Below, piece after piece: positions 3,901 to 23,296 of a stretch of DNA of 23,296 nt. Within the stretch, counting starts at the first letter, position 1, and every line of letters begins with the position of its first letter. This DNA comes from Saccoglossus kowalevskii (lineage: Eukaryota > Hemichordata > Enteropneusta > Harrimaniidae). The stretch lies in assembly GCF_000003605.2 (NCBI RefSeq), contig NW_003141328.1:126588-149883 (forward strand), in the 5' to 3' direction. The notes beneath the pieces were generated by a model that saw nothing but the letters and a program-made list of their open reading frames with translations, was not told the DNA's origin and searched no databases. The position numbers and the translations under genes are program-made.

Positions 3901-6900
3901 CCATGCCCGATATTTCAAGTAGATGAAATCTATAAATCCTCTACTGCTCAATACACATCAAGTTCTAAGCATCTTTTATCATATGATGCTATTAAAATAA
4001 TCAGAAGAAAACCATGCATAGAAGGAAATAGACTTTGTAAAAACTGCAAAGAAAAAGTAGTTGACAATGAAAATCATTATTTAAAGAATGTGATATCAAA
4101 TCAAAACAAAACAGGAAGAGAGAAGACTGAACAACTTTATAAAGATATGCAATTGTAATACTACATTGGCCATTTATTTAACAAATACAATATACAGAAT
4201 TATATAAATTAGAAACAAGGGGGTTACATTTCTGTAATAGTAATTTTCCTTTTAATGGTGACGCAAAATGCATTGTTTGTTTTTGTCTGTGTAACATATT
4301 TATATTTTATTTTTACTATACGTTCATCTAAGGTGTCACTTGTGGAGTGATAAAGTTATTATAATTCAGTTTCATTTTCCTGACTAAGGTTGTGATTAAT
4401 TAATTAATTAACTTTTAAGTGGTGAAGTCAATGTACATTGGGCTGACAAGCTGAGGTTTAATACCATTTGCATTTTTGTTCTATTAAAAGCACATCTGTA
4501 ATTGAAATGCCTATGAACCAACACATTGCATTTTATTGTATGCTGATCTATTAAAATATGATATAGGCGACATAAAAATTATAATAATCCACAGCACATG
4601 TCACTGGGGATTTTCTGAATTACTTGTTTTGTCACATTTTTGTAATACCTTGTAACATTTGAATATTTATTTGCAGGCTGCACTCCCAAAAGCGACCAGA
4701 TTAGATTTATCCTGTAATCAGCTCACCTATTTGCCTGTAAGTACCTGTCAATATTTATACAATACACAATATGATTTTAGCTATTTTGAATAGTTACTTA
4801 CGATCGCTGAATGTCAAAAAACAGTATATGCTCAGTTTTTCAATTTTTCCTTCTACCAAAATGTTAGGTTCTGGATGAAGATTTATTTTATGGCTTTTAA
4901 CTATGACTGACTATCATGATCTTGCATATTGTGCTCAAGATGCAAACCAAACATCTGCCACAAAAATCCAATGATTTGATTTTAAACTTGAATTTCTTTT
5001 TCTGTAGCTCAATGTCTAATTGCCAATCTTTCAGAGGGTAATTATCAAATGCCTATAGCACATTATTACCATAAGCATGGAATTACTTCTTAAAATTCTT
5101 TAATGTTTGTTGAATCCCACATTTTAATGCTACTGCAACACACTGAATTTCACACGTAACGCAGGATGTCACAGTGAACACAAAATTGTCTATTACAACT
5201 GTGAACTAGAATAATGTCTGAATTTATGCAAAAACCATTTTTAATTTTAGTGAAGAAATTTTGGCAGCCGCTGTCGTGATCTAGCCATATTTATATATAT
5301 AATATATCCATGAATTTTTTTATTTATGTGCTCTTCAGTTGTGAATGTGCTTCTAATAGGCTGACACTTCTTCTTTGACTTCTAAATTTGGATGTTTAAA
5401 ATTTGACTGATTGTCATATCCTTCATCTGACTGGGCTTTTGCTAACCCTTCACCAGTCGCCAATCGTGAACTATGTTATGAAATTTAATTACAACAAATG
5501 ATTGTAAAGACCACATGATTACAACTGTGAAAAGTGACAGCATGTAAGGCACCAGTTTAGTCAAATTAACCTGTATATAAAGACCACCTATCTAATGTGA
5601 CCAGTGACAGCATGTTTGGTCAAATCAACCTGTATATAAAGAACACCTGTCTAATGTGAACACTGACAGCATGTTTGGCACCAGTTTGATCAAATCAACC
5701 TGTATATAAAGACCACCTGTCTAATGTGAACAGTGACAGCATGTTAGGCACCAGTTTGATCAAATCAACCTGTATATAAAGACCACCTCTCTAATGTGAA
5801 CAGTGACAGCATGTTAGGCACCAGTTTGGTCAAATCAACCTGTATATAAAGACCACCTGTCTAATGTGAACAGTGACAGCATGTTAGGCACCAGTTTGAT
5901 CAAATCAACCTGTATATAAAGACCACCTGTCTAATGTGAACACTGACAGCATGTTTGGCACCAGTTTGATCAAATCAACCTGTATATAAAGACCACCTGT
6001 CTAATGTGAACAGTGACAGCATGTTAGGCACCAGTTTGATCAAATCAACCTGTATATAAAGACCACCTCTCTAATGTGACCAGTTATCTCCACCTTTAGT
6101 ACTGGTTATAAAACCAAAATGATCGCAGGATTAGTGTTTTAAACTTGTCTCCACACTGACATTTTAATTTAAACAAGACAAGCAAGTGTATAGTTATTTA
6201 TTGTTCAAATATCTATTGACTAATTGTTGGAAATTCTTATCATATAATTTTTGCTCACAAAATAATTAAATAACTTCTGTATAAACACTACCTGTCCATG
6301 AAGGATATTTAGCATATTGTATTTACTTACATGAATATAAAAATTATCTCACCTTGATCTTATCTGTCTAAACAGGCTGGTAATCAGTGAATAAAAACAA
6401 TACTGTGCCCGGTCTTGTGTCCTGTATTATTTTGGACAATAAACAAAATATCTATCCTGTAATCACTTTCATTGTAATTTCCCTTTCATTTTCAGGATGC
6501 ATTTGGTACATTAACACACCTTGTGAAAATAGATTTAAGTAAGAATGCTGTATCTGATCTACCACCCAGTATAGGAGGTCTGGTTAAATTACAGTATCTG
6601 GATCTTCTTGGAAATCAGTTGCAATCCCTTCCAGTTAGCTTTGCCAATTTAAGGAGTTTAAAATGGCTTGATTTAAAGAGCAATCCATTGAGTATAGAGC
6701 TACAGAAAGTTGCTGGAGATTGCTTAGATGACAGGCAATGCAAAGAATGTGCTAAACAGGTAAGGGAAGATTACCCAGTGTCAGTTATTATTATACTTTA
6801 TTTCAGACTCAGACATCGGAAACAGCATTATTTATAAAGAAGGCGTCTATAATTACGCCAAAAACTTGACCTTAGAAATAAGTCACTGTTTATACAATTA

Positions 6901-9900
6901 TCAATTATACTATTTTCACTCTGAAACAATCGCTGTTTAAAATTGTATAAAGATTTTCTATGAAGTGTTGAAAAATTGAAAATATTTCTTCTGACATAAT
7001 TACCGCTTGCACTGCTCGACCTCTCTAATTTAAAAACCAACCGAAGTACACCAACACCGAAGTGTTGTATGCTTTATGCAGAGCATGCAACTGCTTGTCA
7101 GTGTAATTCCTCCATACATTTAAGCAATAGTTACTATATAAAAATGAGCAAAAAAAAAAGAGTACATTTCACATGTTCCGAGCACTTCCCAAAATTCCTC
7201 AAAATAAGATTTGACCTGAGAATATACATTATTCATTAGCTCTGGCTACCATCTGTTTTACTTATTCATGAATTCTACACATGCTTACAGAGATGCATGT
7301 ATATGAACATTACATTGACTAACAAAGTCATCATAGAGGGCATACTATTGTGTATGTCTGTATTAAAAATCTTCTGTACTACCGCCTTGATTTTACAGGT
7401 GACAAGTTATATGAGGGCAGTGCAATCAGAACTTGAAAGACAAAAACAGAAACGATTGAATGAAGAAAAGGGTCAGTATAGCTTGGATACGAGTAAATTA
7501 ATTGTTAGATATTTATTGGTGTTTTAGTCAAAAGTCTGCTCTAAACTAGTCAATAGTTACTTGTGTTACAGTTTCTATGTTTTTCATATACAAAAAAAAA
7601 AGGCATAAAAGTGGTATGGCTCTAGAAGTCATTGTATCATTGCTTGCACGGAAAGATTGAAATAAAACGACTTGCATGTAATTTCCCCGTAGCAAGAGAA
7701 GCTGCAAAGGCAGCTGAACAAGATAGACAGCGAGAAATGAAAAAGAAACAGAAACAAGCAGAGAAGGAAAGAAAAAGAAGAGAATATGAAGCCAAACAAG
7801 CTGCCAAAAGACAAGAGCAATTGTTATTAGCTGAGCAGGAGAGGATAGTCAAGGAAGGTCTGTATAAAGTCGGGCATTCCAAACTCTCTGGAATGTTGCA
7901 TCTTTCCCATTTTCTAACAATAAATTCTCAGTTGTGTGATTATTATGTGTAAAGCTCAAAGTGTCAGTCATTGTGCCACATTATGTTCAATATGAGGTCT
8001 CATGCCACATGTATAATATATACAAAAAAACATTGATAACTATCAATTTGGCAGAAAGTTCCCAGAATTCCCATTCCCAGAATGGATTTTATGGAGAAAA
8101 TTAGTAGCAAGTTAAACAAAATACAAAGCAATGAGAATGGGGCATGCAAGGCAGAAAAATCTAATGAGGTTATTATGAGGATACCTCAAAGTATGCACAA
8201 AGACACTGTAGCGGGAGTATCGACTGATATGCGGCGGAGGTCAATGTGAGGGCATACTGTCTGAGTGCATACTTTGAGGTATCCTCGTAATAACCTTATT
8301 ATACATCTTTTCCTTCAAAGGATACATCATGGGAATGCCGAAATCCAAAATGTTTAGAACAGAATCAGCAAACTTCTTTGTGTGGAGTCTGGTCAAACCC
8401 TGGTGGCAGCCATGTTTGTTTTTAGTATTAGAGGATGCTTACACGCTTAATCATTCCATATTTGGAATTCTCATTTCCTTATATTTATTATTATTATTAT
8501 TTTATTTCCATTTCTCTAAAGAAATATACCCCACTAACCTGGGAGAACAGGTTACAATGCGAAAGTTACAGGCGTGACTTTAATCGCCTCAATAATATAA
8601 AGTATTATATATATATACACATACACACACATATACAACTCATCTATTGGAGAACTCACACTAACAAATGATATCTAATCTGAAAAGCTGTGTATACAAC
8701 TCCTGCAATACTTTGGATGATTTCATGGTTATCCTGAGAAAAAATATATGTAAGTTTACGGATAGGCGAAAGGAACTCGAATTGTGGTTCAATGCGGTTA
8801 TTTCGATCAAAAAGCGGTTTTCCAATATGGTTATATGCTGGACAAACTACCAGAAAATGAGTTTCATCTTCAACAGCATCTATACATATTTGGCAGGTTC
8901 TATTTTCCACTGGAGTTCCATAATATCTACCGGTCTCAATGTGTAACTTATGATTAGAGCACCGGAGTTTAGTTAAAGCTTGTCTGTACAGGGGAACACG
9001 AACGATATCCAAATAATTCTCGTAAAAAATATTTGTTTTAAATTGGCGAAATGTTCGTAACTTTTACTGTTTGGGGATCTACGAACATTGTCAAATAAAG
9101 CATCTTTCCAACTTTTGAAATAAAAATCTCTCTTTCTTTCCAAATAACAACATTGTTTCATCGGTAATTTGGGAGATAAACCTATTCTCCCAAACAGTAT
9201 GCATATTGTGTTTAATTAATAATTTCTTAATAGCTAAAGCAAAACATGGTTTTCCTATCTGTGCCATTTTTTCAGACTATCTATAGGCTTTGTAAACGAG
9301 TCGATTAGATGACATTTTCAGAATACGTTTCCAATATTTAATACGGATTAGATTTCTGCCAATACTAAGTGGATATCGTCCGAGTTCACCTATAACTGCA
9401 CTTATATGGTAGGATGAAAATACCCCATAAAATACCGCCAGATTACGGCACGCTGTAACTTATGCCGTTACGGTGACAGATGTATAATAATAAGAGTAAT
9501 GAAAAAGTTGGGAGGTGAAAACACTTGTTCAATGAAACAAATGACTGAGCATGTATGGAAAATATACACAGTAATTACATCATGAATGCCGGACATTATT
9601 GAAACAACATGAAAATCATGACAACACTTACATTGTAATGAATGTCTTTTTCTTTCATTATCCACAGAAATTAAAAAGCAAAATAGTTCACAACCTGTGA
9701 AATCAAAGCCAGACTCTTCAGGTATGTACCAAATTCAGTCTGCACTGGTGATACAGTTTTAGGTTTGATTTTCTATTCTAAGTCGGACCTTCATGGGGCA
9801 TCACAACCAGAATTTACAAAACAACTTCCAGCATAATGAAAATGAACAGAATGATTTTTTACCTCTGCTGCTTACTTAGCTGATCGACCAAAGCTGTTCA

Positions 9901-13402: not shown

Positions 13403-14800
13403 CTGAAATCAAGTTTACATCCATTAGACAACAAACCAATGCATGTTCAAGTGTGAACAGTTATAAGAGTTATTCCCTGCAACTGGCCTACATGTATGAA
13501 AATCTCAAGAATAAACTCAAACTAGTATTTTTGTCAATATGCACCAGAATAGGACTTGACGCTATACGGAAGCCATTTAAGTTAGACTTTTGCTCAGCAA
13601 AATATCAAGAATTCAAGCTCTGTTTATATGAAGTAAACAATTCAGAGCTGTAATGAGGAATACTGTTCATACCCCTAGGCTATAAATATACATTTATGGC
13701 CAACTGGGGATACAATAATTATCCTACTCGTGTAACCCATTCTACCACAACTATTTCTGTGAACCCACTGTATTTATGGTAACTTCAAACCATTCACACT
13801 TGTATTGATATGCACAGAGTAATCGCTACAGATAACTGAACATGTAAACCACTATTGTAATTCTGCCCTTGGCTTCCACTGCAATGTCTGGAGCTGAGAA
13901 GTTTATGTAAACTATTGAATCAAAGAAAGCTTAGAAAGAACTCCCATGTGCTGAGAGTATTGGAGACACATTAAATATAATTCGAAATTACTTAGCTGAA
14001 AACTAATTATGCAAATCAGAAAATTAATATGACCAGATTTGAGTGTAAAACTAATGAGGTCTGCGCAATGTAACAGAAAATCTATGTTTCCAAGTTTAAT
14101 TGAAATGTGATTAGAACCAAAACATGAATTATTATGCTTATTAGGGAATTAATATGAACAGATTTTTACCCCAAACTAATTAGGTTTGTACATTGTCCTA
14201 GAGCATCTTTGTACTAAGTTTCATTGAAATGGAATAATTAGTACTTTAGATATCAGTGTGAAAGCTTAAAATTGGTTAATTATGCAAATTAGGTAATTAA
14301 TATGTACAGATTTTAACCCACAATTATTCAGGTCTGTCTATTGTCCTACAGCATCCATGTACATTCATTGATATGTGATGTATAGTACCTGAGATATCAG
14401 TGTGAAAGTTGGTTAATTAGACAAACTAGGTGATTAATATGCACAAATATTTACCGAAAATTAATTGGGTCTGCATAATTCTAGATTCATTGAAATGTGA
14501 TGATTAGTACTTTAGATATCAGTAGAAAAGCTAAAATTAATTATGCAAATTAGGTAATTAATATGCACAATTATTTACCCTAAAACTAATCAGGTCTCTG
14601 CATAGTCCTAAAGGATCTATGTACCAAGTTTCATTGAAATGCAATGATTAGTACTTGAGATACCTGTGGAAAAGCTGAAAATTAACTAATTATGCAAATT
14701 AGGTGATTAATATGCACAAATATTTATCGAAAACAATCTCTGCATAGTCCTCGAGTATGTAAGTACCAAGTTTCATTGAAATGTAATGCTCACTAATATC

Positions 14801-15049
14801 AAATGCTGAAAATTAATTAATTATGCAAATTAGGTAATTAATATGTACTGATATTACCATAAAAACTATCAGGTCTGTGCAGTGTCATATGACATCTATG
14901 TACCAAGTTTCATTGAAATGTCATGATCAGTACTTATATCAAATGCTGAAAATTAATTAATATGTACTGATATTACCATAAAAACTATCAGGTCTGTGCA
15001 GTGTCATATGACATCTATGTACCAAGTTTCATTGAAATGTGATAATTAG
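14801..15049. repeat. Recent duplication of one core unit
   Basis: The segment from AAATGCTGAAAATTAATTAA at 14801 recurs at 14941 almost unchanged for about 110 bases (TATGTACTGATATTACCATA ... AAGTTTCATTGAAATGT). The second copy lacks the 21 bases with TTATGCAAATTAGGTAATTA. The near-identity contrasts with the diverged neighbouring units. Confidence 0.85.
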
Positions 15050-15379
15050 TACTTGAGATATCAGTGGAAAAAATGAAAATTGACTAATCATTATGCAAAT
15101 TAGGTAATTAGTATCTACGGATTATTACCAAAAACTAATCGAAACCTAGCATTAGTTCAGAGCATGTATGTACAAAGTTTCATCAAAATCCAATGAGTGG
15201 TTGTTTAGATATCAGTGGAACAATCATGGAACAGCTAAAAATCAGCTAATTATCATGCAAATTAGCTAATTAATATGCACAGATTTTTACCAAAAACTAA
15301 GTTTCATCAAAAACCGATGTATGGTTCTTGAGATAGCAGGAACAGTCGGACACACATACAGACACACTAACTGCAAAGA

Positions 15380-15411
15380 CTCCCATTATGTGCTTCGCAC
15401 ATGGGAGTCAA
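15380..15411. other. Terminal hairpin GACTCCCA...TGGGAGTC
   Basis: GACTCCCAT-TA-TGTGC pairs with GCACA-TGGGAGTC around a TTC loop, with a small bulge in the left arm, giving a 13-bp stem. It closes the repeat array and is followed by AAAA. Palindromes near the 3' end are typical of Helitron/Helentron elements. Confidence 0.8.
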
Positions 15412-17119: not shown

Positions 17120-18568
17120 TCAGTCAACATCATCAAACCTATGTACGGTATCAACACTTGTTTCAGCTTCTGCCAGTCGTGACTCAGTTCCATCTAATTT
17201 TGCACTGCAATCTCCAGTGTCAGTTGAAGTACTGATATCAGTAGAATCTACTGCTATTGTGATAGAATCAATAATCTGATCATATAACTTCTCAGTATCA
17301 ATATTATTTACACTCAGTGATTCGTTATCACTTGTAACACAGACAGGTTTATCCGTTTTCACTCTCATATTGGAATTCATACCATACTCTTCTGATAATC
17401 CTTCCCCGAGCTGCAACGTCTTGTCATCACATTCCGTAGATAGTTCAACGTTGATATCTTGACTGATAGACTCCACGTTAACAGGTTGTTCAGATTTGTG
17501 CATCTCCTTCTCACTAATATTATCATTTGGCTGCAATGGGGCATCTGTGGGCGAATATGTGGGAGAGGTGGGACAGTATGAAGGAGAGGCGGGTGAATAT
17601 GAAGGAGAGGGGGGTGAATATGAAGGTGAGGTGGGCGAATATTTAGGAGAGGTGGCCGAATATTTAGGAGAGGTGGGCGAATAATTAGGCGAGGTGGGAC
17701 AGTAGTATTCTGGTGACCATGAGCCATCCATGCAGTAATCCAGTGAAGCACTATTGTCTCCTAACTTTGTTGCATCAATGTCAATACTTTTAAAAGAGAA
17801 AGTTGAAGATTTCTCTTCAGATGGTAAACTCATACCACTGCTGCTGCTCCTGATATCACAGACTGTGGGTGTTGCTTCTTTTTTAACACGAGTTGGTGAA
17901 TCTTCACATGATGGTGACATTTTCACTTCAGGCGCTTTCACATGACAAGCATCTTCCATTTGAGGTGAGAACTCTTTAGAGTTATTACTGCTACCAGACA
18001 TGCACGATACCGGGGGATCTGTAGGAAAGCTGAAACTCCCGCTGCCACCACAAGAAAATAACTTATATTGCATCAAACCATCCCTATCATGTGGTTGATA
18101 TGACAAGACATTAAAGGCAGATGTGAAACCCTTTGATGCTGGCGCTTTAGATGGGCTGTATTTAACTCTCGTGATTATACGTCTGACTGGTTTCTTCTTA
18201 ATTCTACTGCAGAAGACGGGCACTTCACAAGAGTTAAACCTGACTGCATCATCCATGTTGACTTCATTGTTTGGTAATGAATCCTGTTTAGCTTCACTGA
18301 TGAAGTTTGAAGAGCTTTCCTTTCTAGAGTCTACTGCAGTAAATGTAGAGAAAGCTGGTTTTGATGCATTATTTACAGTGTTCATAAATGAGACAGGTGA
18401 CTTCAGACAGGGAGATACATCTGACATGGCTACTGAAGATGTCAATACTGTACTCTTGCTGGAATTTGACACACATTGAGATTCAGATTGTTTATTTCCA
18501 AATACGCCAAATATTGAATTCATCTTTTCTGGTTTATTACCATTCTTGTAGTTAGCAAATCTTATCTC
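17120..18568 (-). CDS. Terminal exon: FG motifs, NLS-like patch, CTD-like heptads, acidic tail
   Basis: Acceptor TTTTACAG, phase 0, 482 codons, stop TGA at 17122-17120. Residues 1-15 ([15 protein letters not shown]) complete the second GLEBS-like core. Residues 19-24 are IFGVFG. Residues 122-141 are [20 protein letters not shown], a bipartite-like basic NLS. Most of the rest is Ser-rich, low-complexity and probably disordered, with an FSFP at a Gly/Ser stretch. Residues 289-341 are the heptad array. Residues 342-482 are acidic. The first ATG in this exon is at 18523, but the upstream frame is open to the acceptor and homologous, so it is not the gene start. Plus-strand ORFs here are shadows. 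Confidence 0.88.
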
Positions 18569-21500
18569 CTGTAAAATTAAAAATATATGACATTTAGAAA
18601 AAAAATTGTGAAAATTGCTTAGTGATCTTTGCTAACAAGTGTGATACAGTGAGTTATACAGTCATAGTGCAAACACTGTGGTCAATAGAATGGTCATTCA
18701 TTAGACCAGCCAGTGCTGTGGTCAATAGAATGGTCATTCATTAGACCAGTCAGTGCTGTGGTCAATAGAATGGTCATTCATTAGACCAGTCAGTACCGTG
18801 GTCAATAGAATTGTCATTCATTAAACCAGTCAGTGCCGTGGTCAGTAGAATGGTCATTCATTAGACCAGTCAGTGCCGTGGTCAATAGAATGGTCATTCA
18901 TTAGACCAGTCAGTACCGTGGTCAATAGAATTGTCATTCATTAAACCAGTCAGTGCCGTGGTCAGTAGAATGGTCATTCATTAGACCAGTCAGTGCCGTG
19001 GTCAATAGAATGGTCATTCATTAGACCAGCCAGTGCTAAGGTCAAGAGAATGGTCACTCATTAGACCAGTCAGTGCTGTGGTCATTAGAATGGTCACTTG
19101 CTGGACCAGCCTGTGCTGTGGTCAATAGAATGGTCACTCAGACCAATCAGTGCTGTGGTCAATAGAATGATCACTCAGACCAGTCAGTGCTGTGGTCATT
19201 AGAATGGTCACTCGTTAGACCAGCCAGTGCTGAGGTCAATAGAATGGTCACTCATTAGACCTGCCAGTGCTGTGGTCAAGAGAATGGTCACTCATTAGAC
19301 CTGCCAGTGCTGTGGTCAAGAGAATGGTTACTCATTAGACCAGTCAGTGCTGTGGTCAATAGAATGGTCACTTGCTGGACCAGCCAGTGCTGTGGTCATT
19401 AGAATGGTCACTTGCTGGACCAGCCAGTGCTGTGGTCAATAGAATGGTCACTCAGACCAATCAGTGCTGTGGTCAATAGAATGATCACTCAGACCAATCA
19501 GTGCTGTGGTCAATAGAATGATCACTCAGACCAGTCAGTGCTGTGGTCATTAGAATGGTCACTCGTTAGACCAGCCAGTGCTATGGTCAATAGAATGGTC
19601 ACTCATTAGACCAGTCAGTGCTGTGGTCAATAGAATGGTCACTCATTAGACCAGTCAGTGCTGTGGTCAATAGAATGGTCACTCATTAGACCAGTCAGTG
19701 CGGTGGTCAATAGAATGGTCATTCATTAGACCAGCCAGTGCGGTGGTCATTAGAATGGTCACTCATTAGACCAGCCAGTGCGGTGGTCAATAGAATGGTC
19801 ACTCATTAGACCAGCCAGTGCGGTGGTCAATAGAATGGTCACTCATTAGACCAGTCAGTGCGGTTGTCAATAGAACGGTCATTCATTAGACCAGCCAGTG
19901 CGATGGTCATTAGAATGGTCACTCATTAGACCAGCCAGTGCGGTGGTCATTAGAATGGTCACTCATTAGACCAGTCAGTGCGGTGGTCAATAGAATGGTC
20001 ACTCATTAGACCAGTCAGTGCAGTGGTTTATAAAGCAACATTAACCCCTCTGTAGAATACAATACAATGTAAGAATCAAATGTAAATAGGGACTCGCGTG
20101 CAGGAAACACAAAGTATAATACAGTTTATACTTAACAAATGAACACTCAATACTACATTTAAAAGAGAAAGTGAGATAAAGAAAATTTCCTAAAGGTGAA
20201 AAGAAAGCTCTCAGACCCCATCCTTAATTTACTTTAAGCTTTTGAGTCTATTTGCATAGAGTGCTAGCAGCCATTGAACTGTACCAGCTTTCTGTTCATA
20301 CCTTCAGGATTTACACTACACGCCAATCTCTAAGAATAAATAAAGAGCAGAAAACTATATTATGATGGAAACACAGACAGTTCTTAAAATATACTGTGGA
20401 ATACTTTATTTTCGCTGGAATTAATTTTCGCTGAAAAGGTTTTTTGGGTGTTCTTTATGTAATTTATTTTCACTGACTTTTGATGAGTTGAATGTGAAAT
20501 ATAATAGGAAAAAAAAGTATATTCGCTGGATTTTATTTTCACGGAATCATCCCTTCAGGGAAAATAGCGAAAATAAATTCCAAGTGAAAATAAAGTATTC
20601 TACAGTAGTTGATAGGATTGAAGAGCTATTACTATTCACGACAACAGTACTGTTTATTGTGGAAACTGACATACACTTAAAAAGTTACACATTCTATATG
20701 ACAGGACACAACCATATTTGCCCAGATAGTCATAAAAGCTAAGTAACAAAGGTAACATGGAAAACCAGTGTGACGAAGACAATGGCAGGGTAATATGAAC
20801 TTACTTCTATACTTTTATCAAGGGACATACATTGAATACCACTGGTGACAGGTTTGAATGCAGATGGGGTTAGTACATCTAGGGACTGAAATCAATACAT
20901 ATACCATGATTTGAATATTAGTATGACTATTAGTCACATATATCATTAGTAGGGAAATGAGATGCAAATCAGTAGAGTCGTATATACCTGGTATTATGAA
21001 ATTAATTGATTTCAATGTATGTATGAGGCATGTGATTTCAATTGTATCTGTTGTAAATGAATCTCTTATGAACATTTTGATTGCATTCACCTCACCAACA
21101 GTGTAAATTCTAGAACTCCTTAACTTACTGGTTTATAGAACACAGCAAATATAGCCACCTAGAAAACAATAATTTACCAGTTTTTAGAACAGCAAATATG
21201 GCCATCTAGAAAACAGTAACTTACCGGTTTATAGGACACAGCAAATATAGCCCTTCTAGAAAACAATAACTTACCGGTATATCTTTTACTTTATCATTTG
21301 AATCGCTAATCTGCATAGGTGTGTTTACTGTAGTATTAAACAAGTCTGCAACTTTTCTGTTTTCCTTGTAATCTTCTAGCCTCAACTCCTACATGTGAAA
21401 TGGATTACAAATTTACTGGTAGTGTATAATAGAGTGTATCTAGAAATATCAAACTGTGTGTGTGATGAAAAACAATTCGTAATTTATAACATGCTTACCT

Positions 21501-23296
21501 CAAAACTAAGATGTTGATATTGTTCCATTGCCGAGATACACTGATGCTGCGTTTTTATATTCACTGAATAAATATCATCATTAGACTGTGGAGCCTACAA
21601 ACATAAACAATATACCATCAATGCAGTTACCTAAAACATTGGCATTTGTTCCCAAGATGGAAATACCGTATTTGCTCTAATTTAGATGCACAGCTCCAAT
21701 AGAAAAGCATTTAAACTAAAAATCACAAGTTCTCTATGATGTGGACCGATATTAAAGACACCGCATTGTATAGGGACATACATCAAAGATGAAAAATTAT
21801 CCAGAAATGGCTAAAAAAAAAAAAAAAAAAAAGGATATGAATCCACAGATTAAAGGTTCTGAATTTCCACGTCTATCCTCAATGAATTGCTGCCACATTA
21901 CACAACTCCTTGACCTATATCATAATCTATCAACAGGTACTAGATTCGATAATTTAAGGTAGGAGCCTACTCCTAATTTGTGAGAAAGTTGGTCATATAT
22001 GGCATAACAATGTTCATTGGTTTATTATATACAATCATAGAAATATTATCCCATGGCAATATCAATTAGCATTCATTCATGTGTTACAGTGCCGTTTTTT
22101 TCAAAAATTGCTATTTTTAGAACAAATCCATCGAACACAAAAGAAAAATGCATTTTTGACACTTTTTAAAACCCAGATTTTTAAAATAATTTTGTACAAC
22201 AAAAAGTACCCCATCAGTCACAAAATATGGCTTTTTCAGCTCACATCACCAGCCTACAATTTAAGATATGGCATAATATCTCTGCGATAGAAACCTATGA
22301 TAAAAGCATTATAAATACTGACAAAATGGCCACTATCCACTAAATTAACAATCATTTTCTCAAAATATAGGCTGGTGATCCCCAATATCCTTAAATTGCC
22401 CATGAGTAAATTGTGGGTATTATCATTTTTGAGTAGTCTTCTACCTGAAGACAAAGACTTACGTTAAATTTGACTTGTGGACTTTTAAATGGCTGGTATG
22501 GTACTTTAAATGAAAATGATGACCATGCAGGTTGTATTAATTTAGAACTCATAGTTTTAATACTTATGTCTGGCGATGTTTTTGTACTGACTGTCTGCGA
22601 CATACCACCGGTTTTACGAGCCGATTTAAATCGTTGCACTGATGGAGCCGAAGAGGTAACAGTTGAGTTAAAAATAAATGGTTTGCTCTCCGAATTTGTT
22701 TCTGAAAAAAAAAAGAACAGACACTTTCAATACACTGAGAAGCCATCTGGTTTCATTGAAAGACTTGTGTACATCAATGATATAGACAATTTTAATTCAA
22801 TGAGAAGCCATCTGGTTTCATTGAAAGACTTGTGTACATCAATGATATAGACAATTTTAATTCAATGAGAAGCCATCTGGTTTCTTTCAATGGCTTGATG
22901 TGAACCAATGAAATGGACAATTTTAATTAATACACTTACAAGCCACCTGGTTTCATTCGATGATTTAATGTTAGCCAATCAAAGAATCCATATGGTTTCA
23001 TTCAATGAAATGATGTGATTCAATGACATGAACAATCTTAACAACGAGAATCCATTTAGTTTCATTCAATGACTAGGGTGTATATTAATTTACTATTACG
23101 CCATGTTTCAATCTTCTAAGATCCTAAACTAATGAATTGGATGTCTACCAAGTTCACTGTAAATAGCCACAACTTGTGCTGTCACGTTCACATTGTGCTA
23201 ACGACAGCAGATTGTTTTCATGTGCAATCACATGGCTTGTAAATAGAGAATAATGATAGGCAGTAATATTTATACAAACCTGATTCAGTATTGATT
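17120..23296 (-). CDS. NUP98-like GLEBS protein with an RNA polymerase II CTD-like tail (3' part of gene)
   Basis: Five minus-strand exons, all with GT-AG borders and matching phase: 22701-22463, 21594-21499, 21388-21275, 20885-20805 and 18568-17120. A weaker sixth (23296-23280) would extend upstream. Together they give at least 658 residues, with the N-terminus outside the window. [15 protein letters not shown] and [15 protein letters not shown] match the GLEBS segment of NUP98, which binds the mRNA-export factor RAE1. A weaker GLEBS-like core ([20 protein letters not shown]) follows. The last exon carries IFGVFG, a basic patch and seven full YSPTSPx heptads. No GLFG-rich array or autoproteolytic domain is visible. 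It may be a NUP98-derived paralogue or an alternative NUP98 3' end. A nuclear or nuclear-pore role is inferred. Confidence 0.8.
17546..17704 (-). repeat. CTD-like heptad array (7 full + 1 partial)
   Basis: Read on the minus strand from 17704 the 21-base units encode [49 protein letters not shown] and a final YSPT. This is the RPB1 C-terminal-domain consensus YSPTSPS. Tyr1, Ser5 and Pro6 are kept in all seven full units, and position 7 is N, K, K, S, S, S, T. WSPEY precedes it. The nucleotide units differ at synonymous sites, so this is an aged array, not a fresh slippage product. Confidence 0.93.
18664..20030. repeat. 40-bp minisatellite, about 34 units, last intron of the NUP98-like gene
   Basis: The consensus unit is GTGGTCAATAGAATGGTCAT followed by TCATTAGACCAGTCAGTGCT. 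Most spacings are 40 bases, with some 36-base units lacking TTAG near GGTCACTCAGACCA (for example around 19130-19200 and 19440-19540). Variant markers recur at 120 bases (CAGTACCGTG at 18791 and 18911), indicating three-unit higher-order duplication. Each unit includes TGGTC-8 bases-GACCA, a short hairpin. Non-coding, inside the intron between 18569 and 20804. Confidence 0.96.
20031..20391. other. Intronic stretch, nothing recognised
   Basis: Between the minisatellite and the MITE at 20392. AT-rich, no exon-like reading frame with splice borders, no RNA gene seen. Confidence 0.45.
20392..20607 (+). mobile_element. MITE copy B (inverted relative to copy A)
   Basis: The element runs 20394-20605 between TA dinucleotides. 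Left end CTGTGGAATACTTTATTTTC and the complement of the right end CTGTAGAATACTTTATTTTC form an inverted repeat of about 26 bases. Interior phrases (GCTGAAAAGG, TTTGATGAGTTGAATGTGAA, GAATCATCCCTTCAGGGAAA) match the reverse complement of 1797-2004 in order. The 84-codon plus-strand frame starting inside the element is not a gene. Confidence 0.85.
20805..20885 (-). CDS. NUP98-like gene exon with the first half of a second GLEBS-like core
   Basis: Eighty-one bases, 27 codons, acceptor GATTTCAG and donor GAA|gtaagt, phase 0 both sides. Encodes [20 protein letters not shown] then SLDKSIE. IQC and S-E/IEE align with the canonical core in the preceding exons, but the AM-EY segment between Cys and the SIEE run is shortened. 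Small, but phase, splice sites and motif agree. Confidence 0.8.
21120..21275 (-). repeat. Three tandem exon-like modules with splice signals
   Basis: On the minus strand, just past the donor of exon 21388-21275, a ~48-bp unit repeats three times. Each has a TTTTCTAG acceptor-like site, a core GGCTATATTTGCTGT..., and a GTAAGT-like donor: cores 21255-21225 (31 bases), 21205-21178 (28) and 21158-21129 (30). Only the last is a multiple of three and could splice in frame as [10 protein letters not shown]. Could be a minisatellite that captured a 5' splice site, or duplicated micro-exons. Confidence 0.7.
21275..21388 (-). CDS. NUP98-like gene exon: second half of the GLEBS motif
   Basis: 114 bases, 38 codons, acceptor ATGTAG and donor CCG|gtaagt, phase 0. 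Begins [12 protein letters not shown], which completes the GLEBS motif, then [14 protein letters not shown] and a short acidic end. NUP98 has the near-identical EELRLEDYQANRK at this point. No start codon and below 60 codons, so it can only be found by homology and splice logic. Confidence 0.9.
21499..21594 (-). CDS. NUP98-like gene exon: first half of the GLEBS motif
   Basis: Ninety-six bases, 32 codons, acceptor TTTGTAG and donor GAG|gtaagc, phase 0. Encodes [19 protein letters not shown] then [13 protein letters not shown]. It corresponds to the NUP98 stretch with the KHQCITAMKEYESKSLEE signature. The Cys and AM-x-x-Y positions that contact RAE1-type beta propellers in this motif class are retained. 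Confidence 0.9.
21660..22214. other. Intron of the NUP98-like gene with a poly-A run
   Basis: Contains an uninterrupted run of about 20 A at 21813-21832, possibly an old retroelement tail, and TACCGTATTTGCTCTAATTT near 21664 vaguely like the MITE ends elsewhere. No exon-like frame recognised. Confidence 0.4.
22215..22390 (-). repeat. Dispersed repeat, copy 2 (inverted relative to 16076-16215)
   Basis: Reads on the minus strand as GGGGATCACCAGCCTATATT, TGAGAAAATGATTGTTAATT, TAGTGGATAGTGGCCATTTT, GAGATATTATGCCATATC, matching copy 1 in order. The short ORFs over it are not genes. Confidence 0.75.
22463..22701 (-). CDS. NUP98-like gene exon upstream of GLEBS
   Basis: 239 bases, acceptor TTTTTTTTTCAG, donor AAC|gtaagt; enters in phase 1 and ends in phase 0. 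Encodes a Ser/Thr/Lys-rich segment from [17 protein letters not shown] through [10 protein letters not shown] to FKSPQVKFN. The last residues match NUP98's IKFN just before GLEBS. KPFIFN and SSFSFK are FG/FxF-like. The ATG-less start and GTG at 22639 show the frame continues upstream of any apparent start. Confidence 0.82.
22725..23075. repeat. 65-bp tandem repeat, about six units, intron of the NUP98-like gene
   Basis: AGCCATCTGGTTTC begins at 22741, 22806 and 22871 (65-base spacing). More diverged units follow near 22941, 22985 and 23048. The first two units are identical across their full length. Repeating words include TTCATTGAAAGACTTGTGTA and GATATAGACAATTTTAATTC. Non-coding. Confidence 0.9.
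23280..23296 (-). CDS. Possible upstream exon end of the NUP98-like gene (window edge)
   Basis: On the minus strand the window edge reads as five open codons (INTES) plus one base before a CAG|gtttgt donor. Ending in phase 1, it would join the exon at 22701 and complete a GAA codon. The donor is weak and only 17 bases are visible, so this is a suggestion. Confidence 0.3.

Follow-up and report, generated by a model that had tools for sequence, protein, structure and literature searches.

Gene structure

The stretch analysed here (the window) is the final 23,296 bases of contig C3239 of Saccoglossus kowalevskii, a contig of 149,883 bases in an assembly of 572 Mb and 4,830 contigs. On its minus strand we predicted a gene which carries, in one protein, a NUP98-type GLEBS motif for docking on RAE1 and a run of heptads like those in the tail, or carboxy-terminal domain (CTD), of RNA polymerase II. 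This architecture had been proposed in a first-pass annotation of the same DNA, and it is confirmed for the predicted protein by Pfam, by PDB matches and by an open spliced frame; the coordinates, strand and peptides reported there were also correct. The two motifs are known ones, newly combined in one predicted protein.

Five exons (A to E, Table 1) were spliced into one open frame of 658 codons without a stop, and the other two frames were closed. All four introns between these exons are in phase 0. The donors of introns A/B, B/C, C/D and D/E are gtaagt, gtaagc, gtaagt and gtaagt, and the acceptors of the five exons are tttcag, tttgtag, atgtag, tttcag and tttacag. The first two bases of exon A finish a codon begun in an earlier exon, so the gene extends further 5', and the predicted gene is 5'-truncated because the contig, and with it the window, stops there. 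We looked for a contig overlap that would continue it, and the last 337 bases of the contig matched only themselves in the assembly.

Exon E alone is open over 482 codons, for which the chance is about 4e-14 given its base composition. It encodes, in this order, the second arm of a probable second GLEBS-like motif, a spacer with the basic run KKKPVRR, the heptads, an acidic tail and the stop. The spacer gave no Pfam family above cut-off (TIP_N, E 0.046, was below it) and one weak, unrelated PDB row (E 0.023). The D/E intron is 2.2 kb long, and over half of it is a 40-bp minisatellite of 34 copies (18676-20027).

Exon D had not been named in the first-pass annotation. The distance given there of about 365 residues between GLEBS and heptads holds when counted from the HQC core; from the end of the GLEBS it is 341 residues. 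That annotation had also remarked that neither GLFG repeats nor an autoproteolytic domain were visible. The 658 visible residues indeed contain two phenylalanine-glycine (FG) dipeptides and no GLFG. The autoproteolytic domain (PF04096) gave no match when the joined protein and three pieces of it were scanned with Pfam, and the frame closes with a stop.

Table 1. Positions in the window of the predicted exons and of the motifs in and around them
Feature	Position	Strand	Remarks
Tentative 3' end of an earlier exon (..INTES)	23280..23296	-	ahead of a weak donor gtttgt where the contig stops; in frame with exon A; weak evidence
Exon A	22463..22701	-	first exon seen whole; 79 complete codons, basic, no FG; acceptor tttttttttcag, donor gtaagt after AAC; open frame
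Exon B	21499..21594	-	first arm of GLEBS 1; final codon GAG aligned to human NUP98 E201
Exon C	21275..21388	-	second arm of GLEBS 1; initial codon GAG aligned to human NUP98 E202
Exon D	20805..20885	-	first arm of the probable GLEBS 2; placed by splice sites and phase
Exon E, terminal	17120..18568	-	482 codons and stop (17122-17120)
Probable GLEBS 2, second arm	18533..18568	-	start of exon E
Basic run RIKKKPVRR	18179..18205	-	in the exon E spacer; presumably nuclear-localisation-like
Eight heptads	17537..17704	-	codons 465-520
Candidate poly(A) signal AATAAA	16707 (first base)	-	412 bases past the stop; hexamer match only

GLEBS motifs

The first motif (GLEBS 1) is encoded by the end of exon A together with exons B and C, and the residues KFN at the end of exon A open the GLEBS alignment. 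Pfam recognised it in the protein as Nup98_GLEBS (PF21240) with E 2.2e-13 and 50.5 bits, against a cut-off of 27. Seven of the eight PDB rows at E <= 1 were NUP98 or NUP98-type, the best NUP98 chains having E of about 1e-11; the eighth (E 0.52) was unrelated. The segment LSFEELRL holds a glutamate pair equivalent to human NUP98 E201/E202, which is divided between exons B and C; these numbers come from a count that takes KFN as the start at residue 163, in line with the positions of the PDB chain. According to the available part of PMC3783196, the NUP98 GLEBS grips RAE1 as a hairpin across the top of its propeller, and E201 and E202 form salt bridges with R216 and R172 of RAE1. It is quite likely that the predicted protein would dock on RAE1 as well.

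Among ten candidates scored in the whole assembly there were seven PF21240 matches, and only the one in the window was above the cut-off; the other six look random. No GLEBS relative was found in viral contigs, from 20 pattern stretches, and profile searches with PF21240, PF04096 and PF12110 gave no match in 14 control genomes.

A second, weaker GLEBS-like motif (GLEBS 2) is probably formed by exon D joined to the first codons of exon E, which goes beyond the earlier annotation. There are two instances of the pattern EE[LIV]R..[DEN]Y in the protein and none in the 46,588 residues of the unspliced six-frame translation of the window. In both copies a phase-0 intron lies between the two glutamates, and the Glu-Glu pair is also kept in the GLEBS 2 candidate. 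In local alignment, 16 of 20,000 shuffles scored as well as this stretch against GLEBS 1, and 20 of 20,000 against the human NUP98 GLEBS; the stretch used for the shuffles was chosen by eye. It was not reported by Pfam and had no PDB match. Its score is not unique, since residues 187-210 likewise reach 39 against GLEBS 1, and exon A scores 34 against the human GLEBS. The support for GLEBS 2 is the shared pattern, with the intron at the same point. If the motif is real, it is complete only when exon D is spliced to exon E, and the heptad exon is then part of the GLEBS gene.

Residues 187-210 (18467-18538, minus strand) follow directly after GLEBS 2 and align to the first arm of GLEBS 1. They are a third partial repeat or a chance likeness.

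CTD-type heptads

There are seven full heptads followed by YSPTDAP, all in register, and the seven full ones match the YSPTSP consensus at 37 of 42 sites. Aligned to the RPB1 tail of the same genome they score 250, while 1,000 letter shuffles had a mean of 94 and a maximum of 144. Only two of the 5,040 reorderings of the unit reach 250, namely the true order and the exchange of S2 with S5; the next reorderings shown score 249 and are rotations or exchanges between like residues. Every one of the 18 PDB matches to the heptads at E <= 1e-3 was labelled as a subunit of RNA polymerase or as a CTD peptide. The Pfam family Rpb1_R (PF05001, cut-off 20.3 bits) scored 18.2 on the whole protein, below the cut-off, and 27.5 on the C-terminal piece alone, above it. 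No polymerase domain, and thus no catalytic body, appeared in the Pfam scan of the joined protein.

The RPB1 tail lies on contig C16, in an open frame of 403 residues which was recognised by its tail only and in which we counted 44 heptads. When the heptads of the window were searched against the genome that carries them, 150 out of 259 candidates were scored and gave 126 matches, among which the window itself was followed by seven places in this RPB1 exon at 76-83% identity, and the next place outside RPB1 had 68% identity. Four look-alike stretches outside RPB1 were read. Their arrays have repeats such as YSVTSPT or YIITSPS, and the S2-P3 step is in none of them.

Two of these arrays, of 21-bp units with a partial likeness to the CTD, are at C3166:391300-391900, where it is interrupted by stops, and at C3574:781200-782200, where it is open over 275 codons. 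From 137 stretches of viral contigs there was one relative of the heptads, an RPB1-like viral frame. This frame of 1054 amino acids (IMGVR_UViG_2716884565_000001:49-3213) is RPB1-like by eye and ends in CTD heptads, and ahead of them it has FG repeats (GFGQPFG, QPFGTPGFG) like those of an FG nucleoporin. It seems unusual for a viral polymerase subunit to combine FG repeats with a CTD.

Origin of the heptads

Tandem Repeats Finder reported the heptads as a 21-bp array of 7.2 copies with 84% identity. Their codons differ from those of RPB1: Pro3 is CCC in seven of the eight window heptads versus CCA in 31 of the 44 RPB1 heptads, and the use of codons at Thr4, Ser2 and Ser5 is also unlike that of RPB1. 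Each window heptad is 4-7 bases away from the nearest RPB1 heptad, and 1-7 bases away from its nearest neighbour in its own array. By these codon differences and distances, a recent copy of the RPB1 tail exon of the same genome was ruled out. Blastn does align the two arrays, at 68.6% over 102 bases (E 1.2e-6), and they may share an old origin. From its sequence the array looks like a coding 21-bp repeat that expanded locally.

At residues 1-6 of the seven full heptads, six of the ten further alleles are at third codon positions and four at positions 1-2 (P = 0.077 for four or fewer at positions 1-2). This lean hints at selection on the heptads.

The heptads had been called a CTD mimic at first. 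Their sequence is indeed of CTD type, while the functional part of that label is unearned from sequence alone, because the array resembles a local 21-bp expansion and the genome has other 21-bp arrays that are partly CTD-like.

NUP98-NUP96 gene in the genome

It had been proposed to search the genome for a separate canonical NUP98, and a NUP98-NUP96 gene was found on contig C4567. Its NUP96 exons at C4567:94791-100101 gave five Pfam matches above cut-off. Upstream on the same contig there is an exon beginning MFGGQNKTPFGG at 61258, with further FG exons to about 63,380. These upstream exons were called NUP98 from their position and their FG motifs, with Pfam Nucleoporin_FG below cut-off (E 0.0073). 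The NUP98-NUP96 gene predicted in this way is separate from the gene of the window.

In the middle of the NUP98-NUP96 gene there is a gap of 26.8 kb filled with N (C4567:63478-90301). The autoproteolytic domain (PF04096) matched two places elsewhere in the assembly, both below cut-off, and a human sequence of this domain gave no candidate, an empty result that is uninformative for this search. The gap would explain why no GLEBS or autoproteolytic domain above cut-off was found elsewhere, as both would fall inside it.

Comparison with known systems

The predicted protein shares with NUP98 (GLEBS bound to RAE1, PDB 3mmy) the HQC core, the arm E-E-L-R-L-E-D-Y and both glutamates of the salt bridges. 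Unlike NUP98 it has no GLFG in the visible part, no autoproteolytic domain and no NUP96, carries CTD-type heptads, and comes to a stop after an acidic tail. Lys and Arg make up 10.0% of its residues, and Asp and Glu 12.3%.

With the CTD of RPB1, including that on C16, it shares in-register YSPTSPx heptads, among them ones with Lys at position 7. It differs from RPB1 in having eight heptads versus 44, no polymerase body, different codons and a tail of 138 residues after the heptads.

BUB1, BUBR1 and ZNF207 are GLEBS proteins which are not nucleoporins and which bind BUB3. They resemble the predicted protein in that a non-nucleoporin would dock by its GLEBS on a propeller of the RAE1/BUB3 type, whereas the motif of the window matches the NUP98 type by Pfam and PDB, the type with which it was compared. 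Yeast Nup116, Nup100 and Nup145 are a precedent for relatives of NUP98 that differ in the presence of a GLEBS (PMC4283134). They are FG nucleoporins, unlike the protein of the window, and the available part of PMC4283134 does not mention CTD heptads for them.

No GLEBS protein with CTD heptads appeared among the literature matches listed (titles and starts of abstracts of open-licence papers), and no paper of the open-licence literature had YSPTSPS together with GLEBS. This negative covers open-licence papers only and so is weak evidence of novelty.

Proposed function and alternatives

We speculate that the protein is a nuclear adaptor, distinct from NUP98, which would link RAE1 with the factors that read the CTD, and we give this reading a probability of about 0.45. 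The protein is probably flexible. One GLEBS hairpin, possibly two, would use the conserved Glu-Glu pair to dock on the top face of RAE1's propeller, as in NUP98. The eight CTD-like heptads would be long enough for a binding platform: with seven full ones in a row they are longer than the minimal unit with CTD function, which the available part of PMC6548728 gives as di-heptads in yeast and penta-heptads in mammals. The kinases of the polymerase tail might phosphorylate them and so attract CTD-reading processing factors. This phosphorylation with binding of readers is our guess, and recruitment of CTD readers by the heptads is plausible, at slightly less than an even chance. The protein could then keep RAE1 and its RNA beside transcription or processing factors at sites other than the pore, or make such factors available to RAE1; alternatively it may be a decoy for RAE1 or for CTD readers. 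The run KKKPVRR in the spacer would suit a nuclear protein. It is consistent with such a role that RAE1-NUP98 complexes are present in chromatin fractions and that RAE1 is needed for virus-driven shut-off of transcription, as described in the accessible text of PMC3460625.

If the adaptor reading is true, there would be a direct physical link between transcription-coupled processing and RNA export, and also a natural experiment on how a detached CTD behaves. To our knowledge, CTD heptads are treated as a signature of RPB1. In the stronger form, which we consider unlikely, an animal protein that is no polymerase would have a functional CTD tail as well as two GLEBS motifs; carried by RAE1 as a portable part of the polymerase platform, it would compete for CTD-bound processing factors or hand them over to export.

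Several points weigh against the adaptor reading. Silencing of NUP98 had no effect on viral transcription shut-off, according to the same accessible text of PMC3460625. RAE1 itself was not found in the gapped assembly by two human RAE1 queries (one of 341 residues and a 91-residue part). They matched BUB3 on C3049, at 70-88% identity to human BUB3, and the longer query also matched two weaker places, on C1268 and C4558. Given the long runs of N in the assembly we read the missing RAE1 as missing sequence, but as a result it counts against the RAE1 part of the reading. In the charge-hydropathy test for disorder the outcome was mixed: exon A, GLEBS 1, the heptads and the tail fell on the disordered side, which exon D and the N-terminal portion of exon E did not. 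Position 2 is Cys in two heptads. The array has the appearance of a local 21-bp expansion, in which each heptad is 1-7 bases from its nearest neighbour, and its surplus of third-position changes falls short of significance. The gene model is a prediction from genomic sequence with its 5' exons beyond the contig end, and the architecture rests on the sequence of one genome.

The main rival is a serious one, and we regard it as a real possibility: the GLEBS protein would bind RAE1, and the heptads, within a tail rich in Ser and Pro, would be a coding minisatellite that arose by chance, without function for CTD readers, so that the GLEBS alone would matter, for anchoring RAE1 or for competing with NUP98. 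The Tandem Repeats Finder array, neighbouring heptads as close as one base, codons unlike those of RPB1 and the other 21-bp arrays of the genome (YSVTSPT and YIITSPS) all suit this explanation. So does earlier work cited in PMC3783196 (accessible part), in which overexpression of the NUP98 GLEBS mislocalised RAE1 and poly(A) RNA built up in the nucleus. It is countered by the S2-P3 step, missing from the four look-alike stretches, by the window heptads themselves, which lie in frame within a long open exon and agree with the consensus at 37 of their 42 sites, and by changes that lean, not significantly, to third positions. It is rather improbable that the protein is an offshoot of NUP98 that took over or duplicated the anchoring of RAE1, either at the pore or within the nucleoplasm, and whose tail serves phosphorylation-driven clustering and not specific CTD readers. 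Its GLEBS is of NUP98 type, no other GLEBS above cut-off is in the assembly, and in yeast Nup116 is the sole GLEBS carrier of three NUP98 paralogues (PMC4283134, available part). But two FG in 658 residues and the charged composition (10.0% Lys+Arg, 12.3% Asp+Glu) are unlike the NUP98 FG domains described there, and the gap in the middle of the canonical gene could hold a GLEBS of its own.

An error of the gene model, with GLEBS and heptad exons from different genes, or a pseudogene, is very improbable. The model was built from genomic sequence alone, an internal Met (MNSIFG) in exon E could begin a separate gene, and the 2.2-kb D/E intron holds the 34-copy minisatellite; yet the joins are in phase 0 throughout, 658 codons pass without a stop, and one GLEBS-like motif is completed only by the D-E join. 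It is likewise unlikely that the two sets of exons belong to different mRNAs or that the last exon is outside the heptad frame, because of the phase-0 joins, the open frame of 482 codons and the GLEBS-like motif split across the D/E junction.

Other features of the window

On the plus strand at 6478-7952 there is a frame with leucine-rich repeats followed by a charged frame; Pfam shows the leucine-rich repeats only, and the resemblance of the two frames is presumably to LRRC59. An open frame at 8656-9063 on the minus strand had a weak match to zf-RVT (E 0.075, below cut-off) and is perhaps the end of a non-long-terminal-repeat retrotransposon. At 14000-15400 there are diverged repeats around AATTAGGTAATTAATATG, then the hairpin-like CCCATTATGTGCTTCGCACATGGGAG, and these repeats are possibly a non-autonomous mobile element.

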